Below are positions 1,168 to 20,396 of a DNA stretch of 34,885 bases, in pieces. Numbering within the stretch: position 1 is the first letter of the stretch; each line of letters begins with the position of its first letter. This stretch comes from Lachnospiraceae bacterium (GTDB lineage Bacteria > Bacillota > Clostridia > Lachnospirales > Lachnospiraceae), in assembly GCA_022776305.1 (NCBI GenBank), contig JALFIB010000160.1, forward strand, positions 1 through 34,885, in the 5' to 3' direction. Made by a program: the position numbers and the translations under genes. The notes under the pieces are model-generated. The model was given only the letters and a program-made list of their open reading frames with translations, made no database searches and was not told where the DNA came from.

Positions 1168-1342
1168 AAATATTCAAAAACATTTTGAATGGTTTGTGAA
1201 GATTCAGAATGTCACAAAATAACTGACTAGCCAATTGAAATGCGAGTCTCCCGCGCTTTTGGTTAAAGAAGAGAAGTGCTGTGTTTGTTGAAGAGAGATT
1301 TTACACAGTGATTACGTGGCGAAACCTTATTTTTATCATTTA

Positions 1343-1731
1343 CATACAGAAAAAAACTGAACTACGTGTGGAAGAGATAGAAGATGGGGGATTCCATGCA
1401 GAAACTGCTGGCAATTACGTGTCAGCTTGGAGAAGAAGTAATTATCCATGTACAGAATGGTGGGTATTACATGTCATCTGGAAGAGGTAGTGATTTATCA
1501 TGTATAGGATGACGGGAATTACATGTCAGTTGGATAAGGTAGTGATTTACCATGTATAGGATGGTGGGAATTACATGTCAGCTGGAAGAAGTAGTGATTT
1601 ACCATGTATAGGATGGTGGGAATTACATGTCAGCTGGAAGTAGAAATTATTCTCCATGTAAAAGATGCCGAAAACTACGTGTCAGCTAGGAGAAGAAGGA
1701 ATTGTTCATGTACGGAGCTCCCCAATATATG
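1343..1731. repeat. Array of ~52-nt hairpin units, copy 1
   Basis: Each unit is a left arm CAYGTA, a loop of about 15 nt (typically with GGATGGTGGGAA), a right arm TACRTG, then about 26 nt resembling TCAGCTGGAAGAAGTAGTG plus ATTTAC. Left arms start at 1395, 1447, 1499, 1550, 1603, 1655 and 1707 (steps 52, 52, 51, 53, 52, 52). A decayed unit sits at 1343. Arms pair in units 2-7: CATGTA/TACATG four times, CATGTA/TACGTG once and CATGTA/TATATG once, the last two using G-U pairs. The unit at 1395 has one mismatch. The middle units are nearly identical, pointing to recent tandem duplication; the outer ones have drifted. Confidence 0.8.
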
Positions 1732-1769
1732 TACTAAATGTAAGAGAAGTAATTATTACAAGAAAAAGA

Positions 1770-1823
1770 GGGCGTTATAAAATAGGGGAGCATTCAGAAA
1801 TCCTCTATAGAATAACGCTCCAT
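1770..1823. terminator. Terminal hairpin of element copy 1, bidirectional terminator
   Basis: GCGTTAT (1772-1778) pairs with ATAACGC (1812-1818), and ATAGGGGA (1782-1789) pairs with TCCTCTAT (1801-1808) using one G-U. A T-rich stretch follows on the minus strand (CCCTCTTTTTC) and on the plus strand (CATGTTTTCTC), so it can end transcripts from both converging genes. The stop codon of the minus-strand pseudouridine synthase gene (1805-1807) lies inside the stem. The equivalent hairpin in copy 2 has different bases but the same pairing. Confidence 0.65.
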
Positions 1824-3040
1824 GTTTTCTCTCGCAAAAGCTTTTCTCCATCCAGATTTATCCGCTCACCGGTAAAAGGCTGGAAAAACTCAGTTTTCCA
1901 TGCACAAAGACAAAGACCATGTGAAGCTGAGGAGCCATAGATGGGATCTCCTACAATGGGATGCCCTGTATATGCCATATGAACCCGGATTTGATGGGTC
2001 CTCCCCGTCTCAATCCTCACCCGAAGCAGGGTCTTATGATCACCTTTCTTCCATATTTTGTAATGAGTGACAGCGCGTTTTCCGCCTTCTGCCACACACA
2101 TTTTCATCTTTTCGTCCGGAACTGGTGCGATCGGTGCAGAAATTGTCTGCCACATTTCCCGCCATTTTTCTCTATCTCCCTTAGCCGCGACGGGGGTTTG
2201 TTGGCGCTCCTTGGTTCCGTCGCCTTTTTGCCGGCGTTCCTTGGTTTCGTCGCCTTTTTGTTGGCGCTCCTTGGTTCCGTCGCCTTTTTGCCGGCGTTCC
2301 TTGATTTCGTCGCCTTTTTGCTGGCGCTCCTCGGCTCCTCTGCTTTTTGACCGGTTTTCCTCGGCTCCTCTGCTTTTTGACCGGTATTCTTCGGCTCCTT
2401 TGCTTTTTGACCGGTTTTCCTCAGTTCCTCCGTCTTTTGGCCGGTTTTCCATGGCCGCGATGGCTTTTTGCTGGTTTTCCTGTAAAGGCTCTTTCTCTTC
2501 TATCTCCCCTTCACAGAGGGCCAGATATTCTTTCCAAAAAAGTCCTTTTTCTTTTTGATCCCAGAGCCTTGATGAGGCAATTTGGTTTTTGGCAAAAACC
2601 ACAATACCGCAGGTATCCTTGTCCAATCGACCAATACTTCTGACCTGTACCTGCTGGCCTTTTCTCTTAAAGTAACCATATACCCGATTGGATAAAGTAT
2701 CACGAAAATGTCCATGGGAAGGATGAATCACAACCCCTGATTCTTTCCAAACTGCCAGTACATCCTTATCTTCGTACAAAATTTCCAAAGGATCTTCTGA
2801 TATTTCCAGATGGGAAGATCCTGCCTCTTCGTTTTCCAGCAGGATCTTTACTTCATCTCCCATCTTCAACAACCGGTTCACCCGTGCACGCTCTCCGTTT
2901 ACCATCAGCCCTTCATTCCTGAATTTCATGGAACTGATTTGGTTCTTCGTGAAATGCATCTCTTGTTTCAAGTACTGCCCAAGGGTCATACCATTTTCCT
3001 GTTTCCTTATGCGACATAAAATAATCTTTTCATTATTCAT
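1805..3040 (-). CDS. RluA-family pseudouridine synthase with repeat insertion
   Basis: Predicted to convert a uridine in rRNA or tRNA to pseudouridine. An S4-like RNA-binding domain spans about residues 17-70 (TLGQYLKQEMHFTKNQIS, VNGERARVN). The catalytic domain starts near residue 85. The signature GRLDKDTCG places the catalytic Asp at 140, and the C-terminal motif RIETGRTHQIRVH is at 342-354. At 411 residues it is about 100 longer than usual RluA/RluD proteins. The excess is a charged insertion at about 182-298, between YLALCEG and SAPI, containing eight 10-residue repeats. The last residues (WSVIL) and the stop are encoded in the repeat-element hairpin. The start at 3040 has only a weak ribosome binding site. 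The exact RNA target is unknown. Confidence 0.9.
   Translation of the reverse strand: MNNEKIILCRIRKQENGMTLGQYLKQEMHFTKNQISSMKFRNEGLMVNGERARVNRLLKMGDEVKILLENEEAGSSHLEISEDPLEILYEDKDVLAVWKESGVVIHPSHGHFRDTLSNRVYGYFKRKGQQVQVRSIGRLDKDTCGIVVFAKNQIASSRLWDQKEKGLFWKEYLALCEGEIEEKEPLQENQQKAIAAMENRPKDGGTEENRSKSKGAEEYRSKSRGAEENRSKSRGAEERQQKGDEIKERRQKGDGTKERQQKGDETKERRQKGDGTKERQQTPVAAKGDREKWREMWQTISAPIAPVPDEKMKMCVAEGGKRAVTHYKIWKKGDHKTLLRVRIETGRTHQIRVHMAYTGHPIVGDPIYGSSASHGLCLCAWKTEFFQPFTGERINLDGEKLLREKTWSVIL
2207..2446 (-). repeat. 30-bp coding minisatellite in pseudouridine synthase
   Basis: Eight tandem 30-bp units encode 10-residue repeats at residues 199-278. The first four follow NRSKSRGAEE; the last four alternate RQQKGDETKE and RRQKGDGTKE, making a 60-bp higher-order unit. 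All are in frame, so copy number can change without breaking the gene. The product is highly charged and probably disordered. It interrupts the catalytic domain at a point where family members normally have only a short loop. Confidence 0.9.
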
Positions 3041-3090
3041 CCTGATTGCCCCATGGCTTAATTTATGAGTTGTCTAATGAATGAGCCTAA

Positions 3091-3126
3091 CGTCGATTTT
3101 TCGTGCTCTGCATCTCAAAATCGACG
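3091..3126. other. Inverted repeat in leader of pseudouridine synthase gene
   Basis: CGTCGATTTT (3091-3100) and AAAATCGACG (3117-3126) form a perfect 10-bp stem with a 16-nt loop. It lies between the minus-strand promoter near 3245-3273 and the start codon at 3040, so it would be part of the mRNA leader. Function unknown; no T-run follows it on the minus strand. Confidence 0.55.
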
Positions 3127-3131
3127 AAAAC

Positions 3132-3176
3132 ATTCGCAATCCGCTCATTTTTTACGAAAAATGGCTACTTGCTCAT
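3132..3176. repeat. Short dispersed repeat, copy A (ATTCGCAATCCGCT tag)
   Basis: ATTCGCAATCCGCT (3132-3145) and TACTTGCTCAT (3166-3176) recur in the same order at 4018-4046. Here 20 nt lie between them, including a CATTTTTT/AAAAATG-type palindrome; in the other copy only 4 nt do. Both copies lie upstream of minus-strand genes. Confidence 0.6.
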
Positions 3177-3193
3177 GTTTAGCGGGTCCCATA

Positions 3194-3227
3194 GACATAA
3201 AATACATGCAAGCATGTATTTTATGTC
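3194..3227. other. 34-nt near-perfect palindrome
   Basis: GACATAAAATACATGC (3194-3209), AA, then GCATGTATTTTATGTC (3212-3227): a 16-bp perfect stem with a 2-nt centre. It falls just downstream of the predicted minus-strand promoter, so it would be a very stable hairpin at the 5' end of the pseudouridine synthase mRNA, or a dyad bound by a regulator. No T-run follows on either strand, which argues against a simple terminator. Confidence 0.7.
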
Positions 3228-3244
3228 CATTTGCCCCTTGGCTC

Positions 3245-3273
3245 ATTTTATTGCCCTGTGGTTTTTTTGACAA
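3245..3273 (-). promoter_or_regulatory. Promoter for pseudouridine synthase gene
   Basis: Read on the minus strand: TTGTCA (3268-3273), a 17-nt spacer, then TAAAAT (3245-3250), a good sigma-A pattern. It gives a leader of roughly 200 nt before the start codon at 3040, containing the 34-nt palindrome and the 10-bp inverted repeat. Confidence 0.5.
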
Positions 3274-17616: not shown

Positions 17617-19749
17617 ATGAATGGGATTTTATTAGCCATACTTGTATTTTACCCTTTCCTTGGGGGCCTGTTATCTTATGTTGTGGGCCTGAAAAATGAA
17701 ACCTACCGTGATTATCTGGCAGATTTTGTGACTGCAAGTGAATTTGTTCTGGCTTTGGCACTCCTTTTTGTATACGGAGGACGCGCGGGAGAGGCAGCTG
17801 TACTGGAATGCCATGTTCCGGAAATCTGCGGATTCGGCCTGAATTTTACGCTGGACGGATTCCGGCTGCTCTATGGGGCCATCGCTGCGCTGATGTGGAT
17901 GATGACTACCATTTTGTCACGGGAATACTTTAAGCACCATGGCAACAGGAACCGCTTTTATTTATTTCTCCTACTGACCCTCGGTGCTACCATGGGCGTG
18001 TTTTTGTCTGCTGACCTGTACACCACATTTATATTCTTTGAAATTATGTCCTTTACTTCATATGTATGGGTTGCGCAGGAGGAAAATGAGCCCTCATTGA
18101 AAGCTGCGATCACGTACCTTGCGGTGGCAGTCATCGGCGGCCTTGTGATGCTGATGGGGATTTTCCTTGTTTATCATGCCCTTGGGACAGTGGCCATGGA
18201 TGAACTTCTGGCTGCGGCAGCCCAATACCCGGATAAGAAACTGCTGTATATAGCAGGCAGCTGTATGCTCTTTGGATTTGGGGCGAAAGCGGGAGCTTTT
18301 CCGCTGCATATCTGGCTGCCAAAGGCGCATCCGGTGGCCCCGGCTCCGGCATCGGCCCTTCTCTCTGGCATTCTGACGAAGACGGGTGTGTTTGGCATTT
18401 TAGTGATCAGCTGCGGAATGTTCCTTCACGACAGTGCATGGGGCAGATTGATCCTGCTCATCGGAGTGCTCACCATGTTTGGAGGAGCGCTGCTGGCTGT
18501 ATTTGCCATTGATTTAAAACGGACCCTTGCCTGCTCTTCTATGTCCCAGATTGGATTCATCATGGTAGGTATCGGAATGCAGGGACTGCTGGGAGAGGAA
18601 AATGCCCTTGCGGTACACGGTACACTGCTCCACATGATGAACCATTCCCTGATCAAACTGGTTCTTTTTATGGCTGCAGGTGTGATCTATATGAACACCC
18701 ATGCGTTGGATCTCAATAAGATCCGGGGCTTTGGGCGGAAAAAGCCTCTTTTGAAAGCCATCTTTCTCACAGGCGCTCTGGCTATCGGTGGTATCCCGCT
18801 CTTCGGCGGTTATATCAGCAAGACTCTGCTCCATGAGAGCATCGTGGAATTCGGCGGCGGTTTTGTGATGCGGGCTGTAGAATACATCTTCCTGTTCAGC
18901 GGCGGCTTGACGGTAGCTTATATGACAAAACTGTTTGTGGCTGTCTTTGTAGAAAAAAATGAAGATGCGGCTGTACAGAAAAAATTCGATGAGATGAAAG
19001 CATATATGAATCCGGAAAGCACCTTTGCTCTTGCCGGAAGTGCGCTGATCCTGCTTCTCTGGGGCTTATTCCCCCACAAGCTTATGGACAGGGCGGCAGC
19101 TCTGGGACAAAGCTTTATGCATCTGGAAGAGTTTGGACATGTGGTATCCTATTTTAGCTGGAAAAATTTGTCCGGTGCATGCATCTCCATTGCCATCGGT
19201 GCTTTGGTATACTTATTGGTGATCCGCAAATTGCTTATGAAAAAGGAGCAGGGCGGAAAAACTGCTTATATCAATTGCTGGCCTGCATGGCTTGATCTGG
19301 AGAACCTGCTTTACCGGCCGGTACTTCTGGAACTGCTTCCGGCTGTCTGTGGAGCAGCCTGCATGGTTCTCGACCGTTTTGTGGACATGGCAGTCAAATG
19401 TGTGATTCCGGTCTGCCACGTAACCTGCCGTGTATTTGACAGCCTGCCGGATCTTCTTGTGGTGGGGCTTAGGAAGACGGTTTACCGTGACAGTCCGCTG
19501 CCCCATGAATTGCCGGAAGGAAATGCATTTACGCTGGCAGCCGGAAAAATATTAAACGGATGGCAGAAATTTGCAAACGCCACATGGCGCCGTAAAAACA
19601 AGACAGACAAAGATTATGTTCATATTTTAGCCGTTAAGAATGCGGAACTGAAAGAAAACAACATGATCATCGGGCGAAGCCTTTCCTTCGGGCTTTTGCT
19701 GGTGTGTATCGGGCTCTGCCTGACGCTGGTCTATATCCTGTGGTTGTAA
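17617..19749 (+). CDS. Large antiporter-like subunit 4 (MrpA/NuoL/HyfB-like)
   Basis: 710-residue membrane protein. The first ~480 residues are a PF00361 antiporter module: TM5 glutamate in TTFIFFEIMSFTSYVW, TM7 lysine in GFGAKAGAFPLHIWLPKAHPVAPAPASA, and a lysine in GILTKTG. The remaining ~230 residues hold a few further hydrophobic segments and a basic stretch (ATWRRKNKTDK) before a final helix, a longer C-terminus than MrpD. It may supply the role of the N-terminal half of MrpA, which is otherwise missing. Last gene of the operon; the stop is only about 5 nt from the repeat element copy 2, whose terminal hairpin is the first visible terminator. Confidence 0.9.
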   Translation: MNGILLAILVFYPFLGGLLSYVVGLKNETYRDYLADFVTASEFVLALALLFVYGGRAGEAAVLECHVPEICGFGLNFTLDGFRLLYGAIAALMWMMTTILSREYFKHHGNRNRFYLFLLLTLGATMGVFLSADLYTTFIFFEIMSFTSYVWVAQEENEPSLKAAITYLAVAVIGGLVMLMGIFLVYHALGTVAMDELLAAAAQYPDKKLLYIAGSCMLFGFGAKAGAFPLHIWLPKAHPVAPAPASALLSGILTKTGVFGILVISCGMFLHDSAWGRLILLIGVLTMFGGALLAVFAIDLKRTLACSSMSQIGFIMVGIGMQGLLGEENALAVHGTLLHMMNHSLIKLVLFMAAGVIYMNTHALDLNKIRGFGRKKPLLKAIFLTGALAIGGIPLFGGYISKTLLHESIVEFGGGFVMRAVEYIFLFSGGLTVAYMTKLFVAVFVEKNEDAAVQKKFDEMKAYMNPESTFALAGSALILLLWGLFPHKLMDRAAALGQSFMHLEEFGHVVSYFSWKNLSGACISIAIGALVYLLVIRKLLMKKEQGGKTAYINCWPAWLDLENLLYRPVLLELLPAVCGAACMVLDRFVDMAVKCVIPVCHVTCRVFDSLPDLLVVGLRKTVYRDSPLPHELPEGNAFTLAAGKILNGWQKFANATWRRKNKTDKDYVHILAVKNAELKENNMIIGRSLSFGLLLVCIGLCLTLVYILWL

Positions 19750-19863
19750 AAGGGAATGTCCTGAGATAACTGATCAAAAGGGAATGTTCCGAAATAACTG
19801 ATCAGCCGGCTGTGGCGCGAGATTCTAAATAAGAAGTGGTACTCTGGTTGAGGCGGGATTTTC

Positions 19864-20100
19864 CACGTAGAGACTGCTATGGTATATACGTGTTGGATAG
19901 AAGAAAATGTGAGTTGCCACGTAATGAATGTGGAAATTTACGTGTCAGACAGAAGAAAATGTGAGTTGCCATGTATGAATGGCTGAAAACTACATGTCTG
20001 ATAGAGGTAACAGTAATTTTCCATGTCGGGAATGTCAAAAACTACGTGTCGGATAGAGAAAAATGGGGTTTTTCGTGTAAGTAATTCTAAAATATACGTG
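19864..20100. repeat. Array of ~52-nt hairpin units, copy 2
   Basis: Five units with left arms at 19864, 19918, 19970, 20022 and 20074 (steps 54, 52, 52, 52). Arms: CACGTA/TACGTG (19864/19887); CACGTAA/TTACGTG (19918/19938); CATGTA/TACATG (19970/19991); CATGT/ACGTG (20022/20044, with a T-G pair); CGTGTA/TACGTG (20074/20095, with G-T and T-G pairs). Loops are 15-17 nt and often contain GAATG followed by a run of A. Spacers resemble GACAGAAGAAAATGTGAG plus TTGCC. Confidence 0.78.
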
Positions 20101-20364
20101 TGAAAAATGACTATCCCTCGTAAAAAAGGGAAGAGCGTTGCAAAATAGATGAGCAGTCTGATATCTCAATCTATGGAACAACGCTCCATTTTTCTTCAAC
20201 CCAAATGTATCACTGATTGCGATCAGATTGGCAACATCAGGAATACCCTTGCCTGTTTCCCATTTTGTGATTGCCTGTCGGGATACATTTAACCTTGCTG
20301 CAAGCTGTTCCTGTGAAAGGCTTGCTTTTTTTCGTTGTTCTCTTATTTTTTCTCCTAAACTCAC
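20035..20364 (-). pseudogene. XRE-family regulator truncated by repeat element
   Basis: The first ~58 residues are a complete Cro/CI helix-turn-helix: SLGEKIREQRKKASLSQEQLAARLNVS with RQAITKWETGKGIPDVANLIAISDTFG. From GLKKNGAL onward the reading frame runs through the terminal hairpin and array of the repeat element and encodes nothing recognisable, whereas relatives continue into a C-terminal domain at this point. A GTG at 20364 is the likely start: GGAGG lies 8 nt upstream and the family usually begins with (M)SLGEK; the frame also has an earlier ATG at 20379. The promoter is intact, so a short DNA-binding protein could still be made. Confidence 0.65.
20133..20186. terminator. Terminal hairpin of element copy 2, bidirectional terminator
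   Basis: GAGCGTTG (20133-20140) pairs with CAACGCTC (20179-20186), ATAGAT (20145-20150) with ATCTAT (20169-20174), and GAG (20151-20153) with CTC (20165-20167). T-rich stretches follow on plus (CATTTTTCTTC) and minus (CTTCCCTTTTTT). It would end the Mrp operon transcript and the truncated XRE transcript. Confidence 0.65.
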
Positions 20365-20396
20365 TTTTGGGTCCTCCAATCTTGTTTTGCAAGCTT

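Follow-up and report, generated by a model that had tools for sequence, protein, structure and literature searches.

What are the two repetitive, non-coding loci in a 34,885-nucleotide stretch of a Lachnospiraceae genome (assembly GCA_022776305.1, contig JALFIB010000160.1; hereafter, the window), and to which protein do they belong? Each locus carries an array of alternating half-sites, in which TACRTG points to the right and its inverse, CAYGTA, points to the left. The original prediction took these arrays for covarying hairpins selected to fold as RNA or single-stranded DNA, and cautioned that protein-binding sites on DNA would give part of the same pattern. The caution proved to be the better reading. 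The window loci are probably dispersed, gene-less arrays of the cognate sites of a nuclease system, i.e., a gene with its own repeats, as in REPtrons, built on an unrelated enzyme. What had been observed was confirmed in part, and the interpretation given to it was supported in part.

The candidate partner is a gene family that adjoins arrays in four genomes (L103, L110, L112, and L157 on contig C42 of the genome under study). A protein search in the eight genomes with arrays gave 23 matches in seven of them, with one in our genome and none in the genome of the Planctomycetes-Verrucomicrobia-Chlamydiae (PVC) group. The sole copy found in our genome adjoins an array of convergent half-sites. 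Its contig is not stray by composition, and the contig end with the gene and the array is AT-rich (GC content of 0.36 vs 0.45). The gene-linked motifs differ, e.g., TTGACTAA, CTAGGACG, CCCTAAGA, CCGTACCA, and TACATCAG, and their regular alternation is common to most. We counted inverted 7-mers in the flanks of 22 copies. For ten copies the count was not reached by any of 100 shuffles, and for eight it was borderline (2 to 6 of 100). The copies of our genome (L193) and of the STE_209 genome (L196) have evident arrays that were missed by this exact-word test; L203 and L209 were unsupported.

The association was tested independently on 60 further copies, drawn from 47 genomes that had played no part in the discovery, together with as much as 6 kb of flanking sequence per side. 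These copies were taken from the top of the matches listed, mostly away from contig starts, and two have an in-frame stop. At least three convergent inverted pairs were found within 800 bp of the gene in 37 of the 60 copies, with widely different motifs. The best array was upstream of the gene in 35 of these cases and downstream in two. As controls, three or more pairs were found in 4 of 518 tiles, in none of 360 shuffles, and in none of 190 regions upstream of other open reading frames (ORFs) in the same loci. The control-tile arrays L285 (at 3246) and L302 (at 11495) have motifs unlike that of the nearby nuclease gene, and may be the dispersed arrays of another such system.

The distances between successive pairs take few values. 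Among the 175 distances below 100 bp, 99 measure 51–54 bp, 24 measure 61–65 bp, 40 measure 71–75 bp, 12 measure 83–85 bp, and none falls between these classes. Successive pairs are 5, 6, 7, or 8 helical turns apart. The span of a pair was set at 30–42 bp by the search and is hence no finding; a period could take any value up to 100 bp. With one value per array for 36 of the 37 arrays (L253, which has no interval below 100 bp, was left out), the best-fit period is 10.45 bp (R = 0.87), a fit that none of 20,000 uniform or jittered sets reached. Restricted to the 16 arrays above 55 bp, the fit gave R = 0.80. Since the periods are quantised at whole helical turns, the sites lie on one face of duplex DNA. 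Whole-turn steps across arrays of unrelated sequence point to a protein on that face, and other explanations are hard to find.

We compared the arrays with 50 gene-linked motifs. The motif of our own genome's nuclease gene was the nearest both to window array 1 (0.73 over six pairs) and to the remaining arrays of the genome taken together (0.78 over 31 pairs). Window array 2 has two usable pairs, and our gene ranks fifth of 50. The arrays of STE_209 and RUG170 were nearest to the motif of a gene of the same genome, which in STE_209 (L196) had been found by the protein search and not via its array. For RUG12922 a gene of the same genome came second, in a tie. None of the four gene motifs tested in the Tissierellia genome matches its array. 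Part of the agreement in these comparisons is by choice, as we entered the motif seeds manually and picked out the TACGTG class by pattern.

The partner protein has around 260–270 residues. Its predicted fold comprises an N-terminal coiled-coil hairpin, beta strands, and a C-terminal PD-(D/E)XK-like nuclease domain, in which the model places both the core fold and the acidic active-site residues of such nucleases. The partner is thus probably a DNA-cutting enzyme, as far as the model tells. We aligned 21 of the 23 proteins, excluding L209 (one internal stop) and L208 (partial match). None of the 21 had a credible match in Pfam, where no Y1 transposase figured among the rows. Two members searched in NCBIfam gave no credible match (the best, for one member only, was 0.0038, far below the cut-off), and two searched in PHROGs gave weak rows only, the best being an endonuclease (0.0013). 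There was no sequence relative in the PDB at an E-value of 0.1, and no Foldseek row at 0.001 or better. PADLOC's candidate defence models PDC-S68 matched all 21 proteins, at 5.5e-32 for the best; in one member viewed in detail, residues 139–268 align with the C-terminal part of a much larger profile. Of 397 genomes sampled from the taxonomic family, 124 have the gene (E-value of 1e-20). In the open-licence literature of PubMed Central, we found no paper describing such a nuclease-array system or PDC-S68, which is weak evidence of absence as several of the searches used strict terms.

In the window, each array is part of a larger element. The parts are listed below with their matches to the end-hairpin model R2, which was built partly from the four window ends, so that their matches hold by construction.
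1200–1259, forward strand: left end of element 1, where a degenerate copy of the hairpin repeat precedes a left module that is not part of the array (alignment; R2 E-value of 3.3e-8)
1363–1712, forward strand: array 1, half-sites TACRTG(T) to the right and CAYGTA to the left (sequence, spacing, and unit-model matches)
1763–1829, forward strand: right end hairpin of element 1, terminator-like, with an inner loop AAA/AGA by eye (R2 E-value of 3.9e-6; family covariation)
19775–19834, forward strand: left end of element 2 (R2 E-value of 8.8e-8), with a 28-bp tandem duplication at 19748–19804 (Tandem Repeats Finder (TRF), period of 28)
19864–20100, forward strand: array 2, with the geometry of array 1 and four to five units, mostly TACGTG/CACGTA
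20126–20195, forward strand: right end hairpin of element 2, with a T run after it (R2 E-value of 7.6e-8; family covariation)
20035–20379, reverse strand: short ORF with an HTH_3 domain at residues 12–61, whose 3' part, with the C-terminal codons, lies inside element 2

Every measured step from TACRTG to TACRTG in the two arrays is 52 bp, and TRF gives a period of 52 for 1409–1712, in line with the units of about 52 nt originally described. In array 1, a right-pointing half-site and the following left-pointing one start 31 bp apart (32 bp in the first pair, by eye), and the next right-pointing one starts 21 bp later. The left end and the terminal hairpin are indeed common to the two loci, and are arranged alike in order and orientation, as the alignment and the R2 matches show. 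Both had been placed between converging genes. This holds for locus 1, which lies between an MFS gene and an RluA-type gene; at locus 2 the convergence is on the short HTH_3 ORF that runs into the element, and which was possibly truncated by the insertion of element 2. Neither element matches Rfam at the gathering score.

The original prediction relied on a compensatory switching of the third pair of each hairpin. Across 55 hairpins from 16 loci of our genome, this pair is T-A in 27, T-G in 18, C-A in 7, and C-G in 3 cases, which gives no covariation (Fisher's one-sided p = 0.83; p = 0.69 for the other pairing register). In an alignment of the 39 of the 55 units that have full arms and no indel, neither register beats shuffles: the observed covariation score was reached by 361 of 500 and 200 of 500. 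As to the register, the arms in relatives extend (by eye) over the 24–26 nt side and not over the 15-nt loop of the original prediction. Taken alone, the array (1390–1730) has no folding advantage over shuffles, 17 of 100 of which did as well (z = -0.88). The whole elements do fold better (z = -2.66 against 20 shuffles and z = -3.09 against 100), a surplus that would come mainly from the end hairpins. With no covariation in its own genome, and with the spacing of gene-linked arrays quantised at the helical repeat, the array is not well described as folded RNA or single-stranded DNA. Arrays of phased sites show why such repeats pass by eye for covarying hairpins.

The end hairpins are a different matter. 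They are copies of a hairpin repeat of about 48 nt whose 3x3 inner loop (AAA/GGA) is conserved and which often has a T run after it. In 15 related sequences, 94.3% of the cells are paired and 12 of 18 pairs show double changes. The covariation score and three other measures were reached by none of 500 shuffles, and the number of further pair types by 11 of 500. Among 39 further genomes of the genus, 13 have matches to the model of this hairpin, and the 11 loci that we viewed there (L144–L154) are solo, without array, several of them directly after a stop codon. The flanking hairpins are therefore a separate, covarying, terminator-like repeat, distinct from the array: the long terminal hairpin is a real structure, as had been proposed, but one that does not belong to the array. 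This repeat of the genus, with strong covariation and no Rfam match in the window, merits its own description.

The claim of a repeated element was borne out beyond its two window copies. Element 1 matches 17 places in its own genome, and a unit model gave at least 70 matches at an E-value of 0.1 on 20 contigs, in at least 21 loci with both window copies counted. These are lower bounds, given that 150 of 1,979 first-look candidates were scored; L016, which overlaps L015, was left out of the own-locus counts. By a simple ORF rule, which mis-called at least L170, five of the 21 loci are between convergent genes, eight between tandem genes, two between divergent genes, and six have one side unknown. 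In some cases, several contigs represent haplotypes of a single locus (C12/C75/C86 and C272/C107), which makes the turnover of the arrays visible. Homologous loci gain and lose units, as expected from the original prediction of arrays that change in unit number: between the haplotypes L015 and L013 there is a difference of a single 52-bp unit, and L155 and L156 also differ in unit number (by eye). In another pair of homologous haplotypes, an array with two hairpins in L005 is opposed to inverted hairpin modules without array in L064 (1340–1620); the empty site is not clean. No target-site duplication (TSD) was seen in the one haplotype pair compared.

Array units also serve as a target for a mobile element. 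In L012, an IS110-family insertion sequence (IS; Pfam Transposase_20 and DEDD_Tnp_IS110) lies inside an array unit, and L013 is the uninterrupted allele. Its junction is at one fixed unit position in all three ends seen of that side (L003, L012, L014), and these loci form, together with L013, a natural target-site series for an element of this family. Passages of PMC11208160 report a similar behaviour for IS621, another IS110-family element, with 144 of 173 insertion sites in repetitive extragenic palindromic (REP) sequences. Here the array provides the insertion target, and the IS is not its partner. We rejected a candidate with IS6-like ends and a transposase: the pattern gave 17 places in our genome, and the 11 viewed by eye were arrays, solo hairpins, and likely chance matches, with no transposase.

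Relatives of the array were rarely found by similarity. DNA similarity to the element was absent from the 97 other genomes searched (46 of the same genus), with at most five candidates scored per genome. Across 39 further genomes of the genus, the unit model gave a single weak match, L075, which by eye is no array; it also gave weak matches in three other genera, of which L072 and L074 are arrays and L073 is not. Scanning one genome per species (84,980 species) for ACACGTA/TACGTGT arrays gave 27 stretches, of which 24 are in Lachnospiraceae metagenome-assembled genomes (MAGs; RUG170, RUG12922, STE_209, Tb.RUG.515), one in a Tissierellia MAG, one in a PVC MAG, and one is a chance match. The arrays L111 (6650–7090, Tissierellia MAG) and L124 (1570–1750, PVC MAG) have a similar geometry, with periods of 55 and 56 bp, and no matching partner gene was found for them. 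When both gaps were left free between 10 and 40, only spacings near two or three helical turns occurred among the matches listed, in eight genomes (by eye). L110 and L079 keep such spacings in otherwise unrelated units, which was the first sign that the helix, and not RNA, sets the geometry. Plasmid or phage arrays were also considered and rejected: a distant blastn search with element 1 gave no match, and the pattern matches in viral contigs (L097–L099) and in Halopiger (L102) were low-complexity or single by eye.

How might such a system work? The protein would bind pairs of half-sites on double-stranded DNA, and adjacent pairs would co-operate along the same face. That the nuclease binds the arrays is suggested by phasing and linkage. 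Cutting and spread would follow from the predicted fold and from the turnover of the arrays: nuclease action, and the recombination it provokes, may lengthen, shorten, and spread them. Insertion of arrays such as those of the window, between terminator-like hairpins in intergenic positions, may do little harm. Gene and array would then behave as a REPtron, an enzyme gene with its own dispersed palindromic repeats, with another enzyme. In passages of PMC8266576, REPtrons (TnpA_REP/RAYT with REP/BIME) are described as an enzyme gene beside cognate palindromic repeats that are dispersed between genes; bacterial interspersed mosaic elements (BIME) are inverted REP pairs in tandem, and a Marinomonas genome can have more than one REPtron system. 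The likeness lies in position (gene beside arrays in 37 of 60 copies) and motif (a match within the same genome in four genomes), which makes the sites putatively cognate. However, the REPtron enzyme is an HUH tyrosine transposase and ours is, by its predicted fold, a PD-(D/E)XK-type nuclease. REPtron sites are single-stranded hairpins with a GTAG tag, whereas ours are separated half-sites phased on the helix, with consensuses that vary freely and no common GTAG-type tag by eye. As the enzyme is of another kind, the nuclease-array pairing falls outside the REPtron family, and at most works like a REPtron. On this account, a common protein family gains a DNA partner in helically phased arrays whose motif differs from copy to copy, the dispersed arrays of these bacteria get a candidate owner, and the copies provide a naturally occurring set of nucleases whose candidate target sites can be read from the DNA. 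They also raise the question of whether the enzyme chooses the array or the array chooses the enzyme.

Several observations weigh against this account. No array was detected in 23 of the 60 further copies. Motif similarity does not follow from protein similarity (rho = -0.001), and L192 and L245 are 71% identical with dissimilar motifs. The upstream placement of the arrays also fits autoregulation or titration. Because proteins as much as 71% identical have dissimilar motifs and protein similarity does not predict the motif, the array itself might tell the nuclease its target, by way of a nucleic acid made from the array or of a site that has been learned, in a self-specifying and possibly reprogrammable system. 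We find this improbable. The upstream placement also speaks for a different possibility, in which the protein is an antiphage effector, the adjoining array represses its gene, and the dispersed arrays keep the remaining protein bound and harmless until required, with no need for selfish spread. Helical phasing suits the co-operative binding of a repressor, and all aligned proteins match a candidate defence model, although the match spans part of a much larger profile. Some arrays are nevertheless downstream or on both sides of the gene (L192, L199, L202, L205, L207, L212, L214, L245, L278), and ten to twenty dispersed arrays per genome would be a costly repression of one gene. We consider such operator or titration arrays unlikely, while giving them appreciable weight.

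The elements might also be ordinary composite mobile repeats moved by an IS transposase, with an incidental link to the nuclease. Their model would be the pneumococcal BOX, which passages of PMC3049150 describe as dispersed elements of 67–637 bp, with end modules around variable tandem units, terminal inverted repeats, TSDs, and boxA and boxC folding together. Compared by architecture alone, the window elements have the same succession of left module, variable tandem units, and right module, and mixed intergenic positions are as expected of such repeats. They differ in that each end is its own terminator-like hairpin, a direct copy of the separate genus repeat, and in that the array is linked to a nuclease gene, as in the 37 further copies. 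Since the 11 own loci with matching ends had no transposase (by eye) and no TSD was seen, this explanation is very improbable. We give hardly any credence to folded RNA arrays, be they a structured RNA, an RNA antitoxin of the type III toxin-antitoxin kind, or TIGR stem-loop guides. The arrays do adjoin a nuclease gene, their units are palindromic, and the L116 array alters both arms together (from TACGTG/CACGTA to TGCGTG/CACGCA). But the units of our genome do not covary, the array folds as shuffles do, and a quantised spacing of about 10.5 bp has no evident meaning for RNA. In type III toxin-antitoxin systems the RNA of the array binds the toxin, and the phasing argues against this likeness. 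TIGR-Tas arrays, including the stem-loop type, are tandem palindromic units beside a gene, each with two variable spacers and box C/D motifs, according to passages of PMC12045711. Here the units of an array are near identical, in our genome and in relatives, without such variable spacers, and their geometry follows the helix. Pfam found no member of the Nop (Tas) family among the array-linked proteins; Nop genes elsewhere were not searched for.

Two further features of the window lie outside the elements. The RluA-type gene next to locus 1 contains 30- and 60-bp tandem repeats (2197–2450), which encode a repeated charged insert. The sole Rfam match in the window is a Clostridiales-1 RNA (RF01699), at 3082–3245 on the reverse strand.
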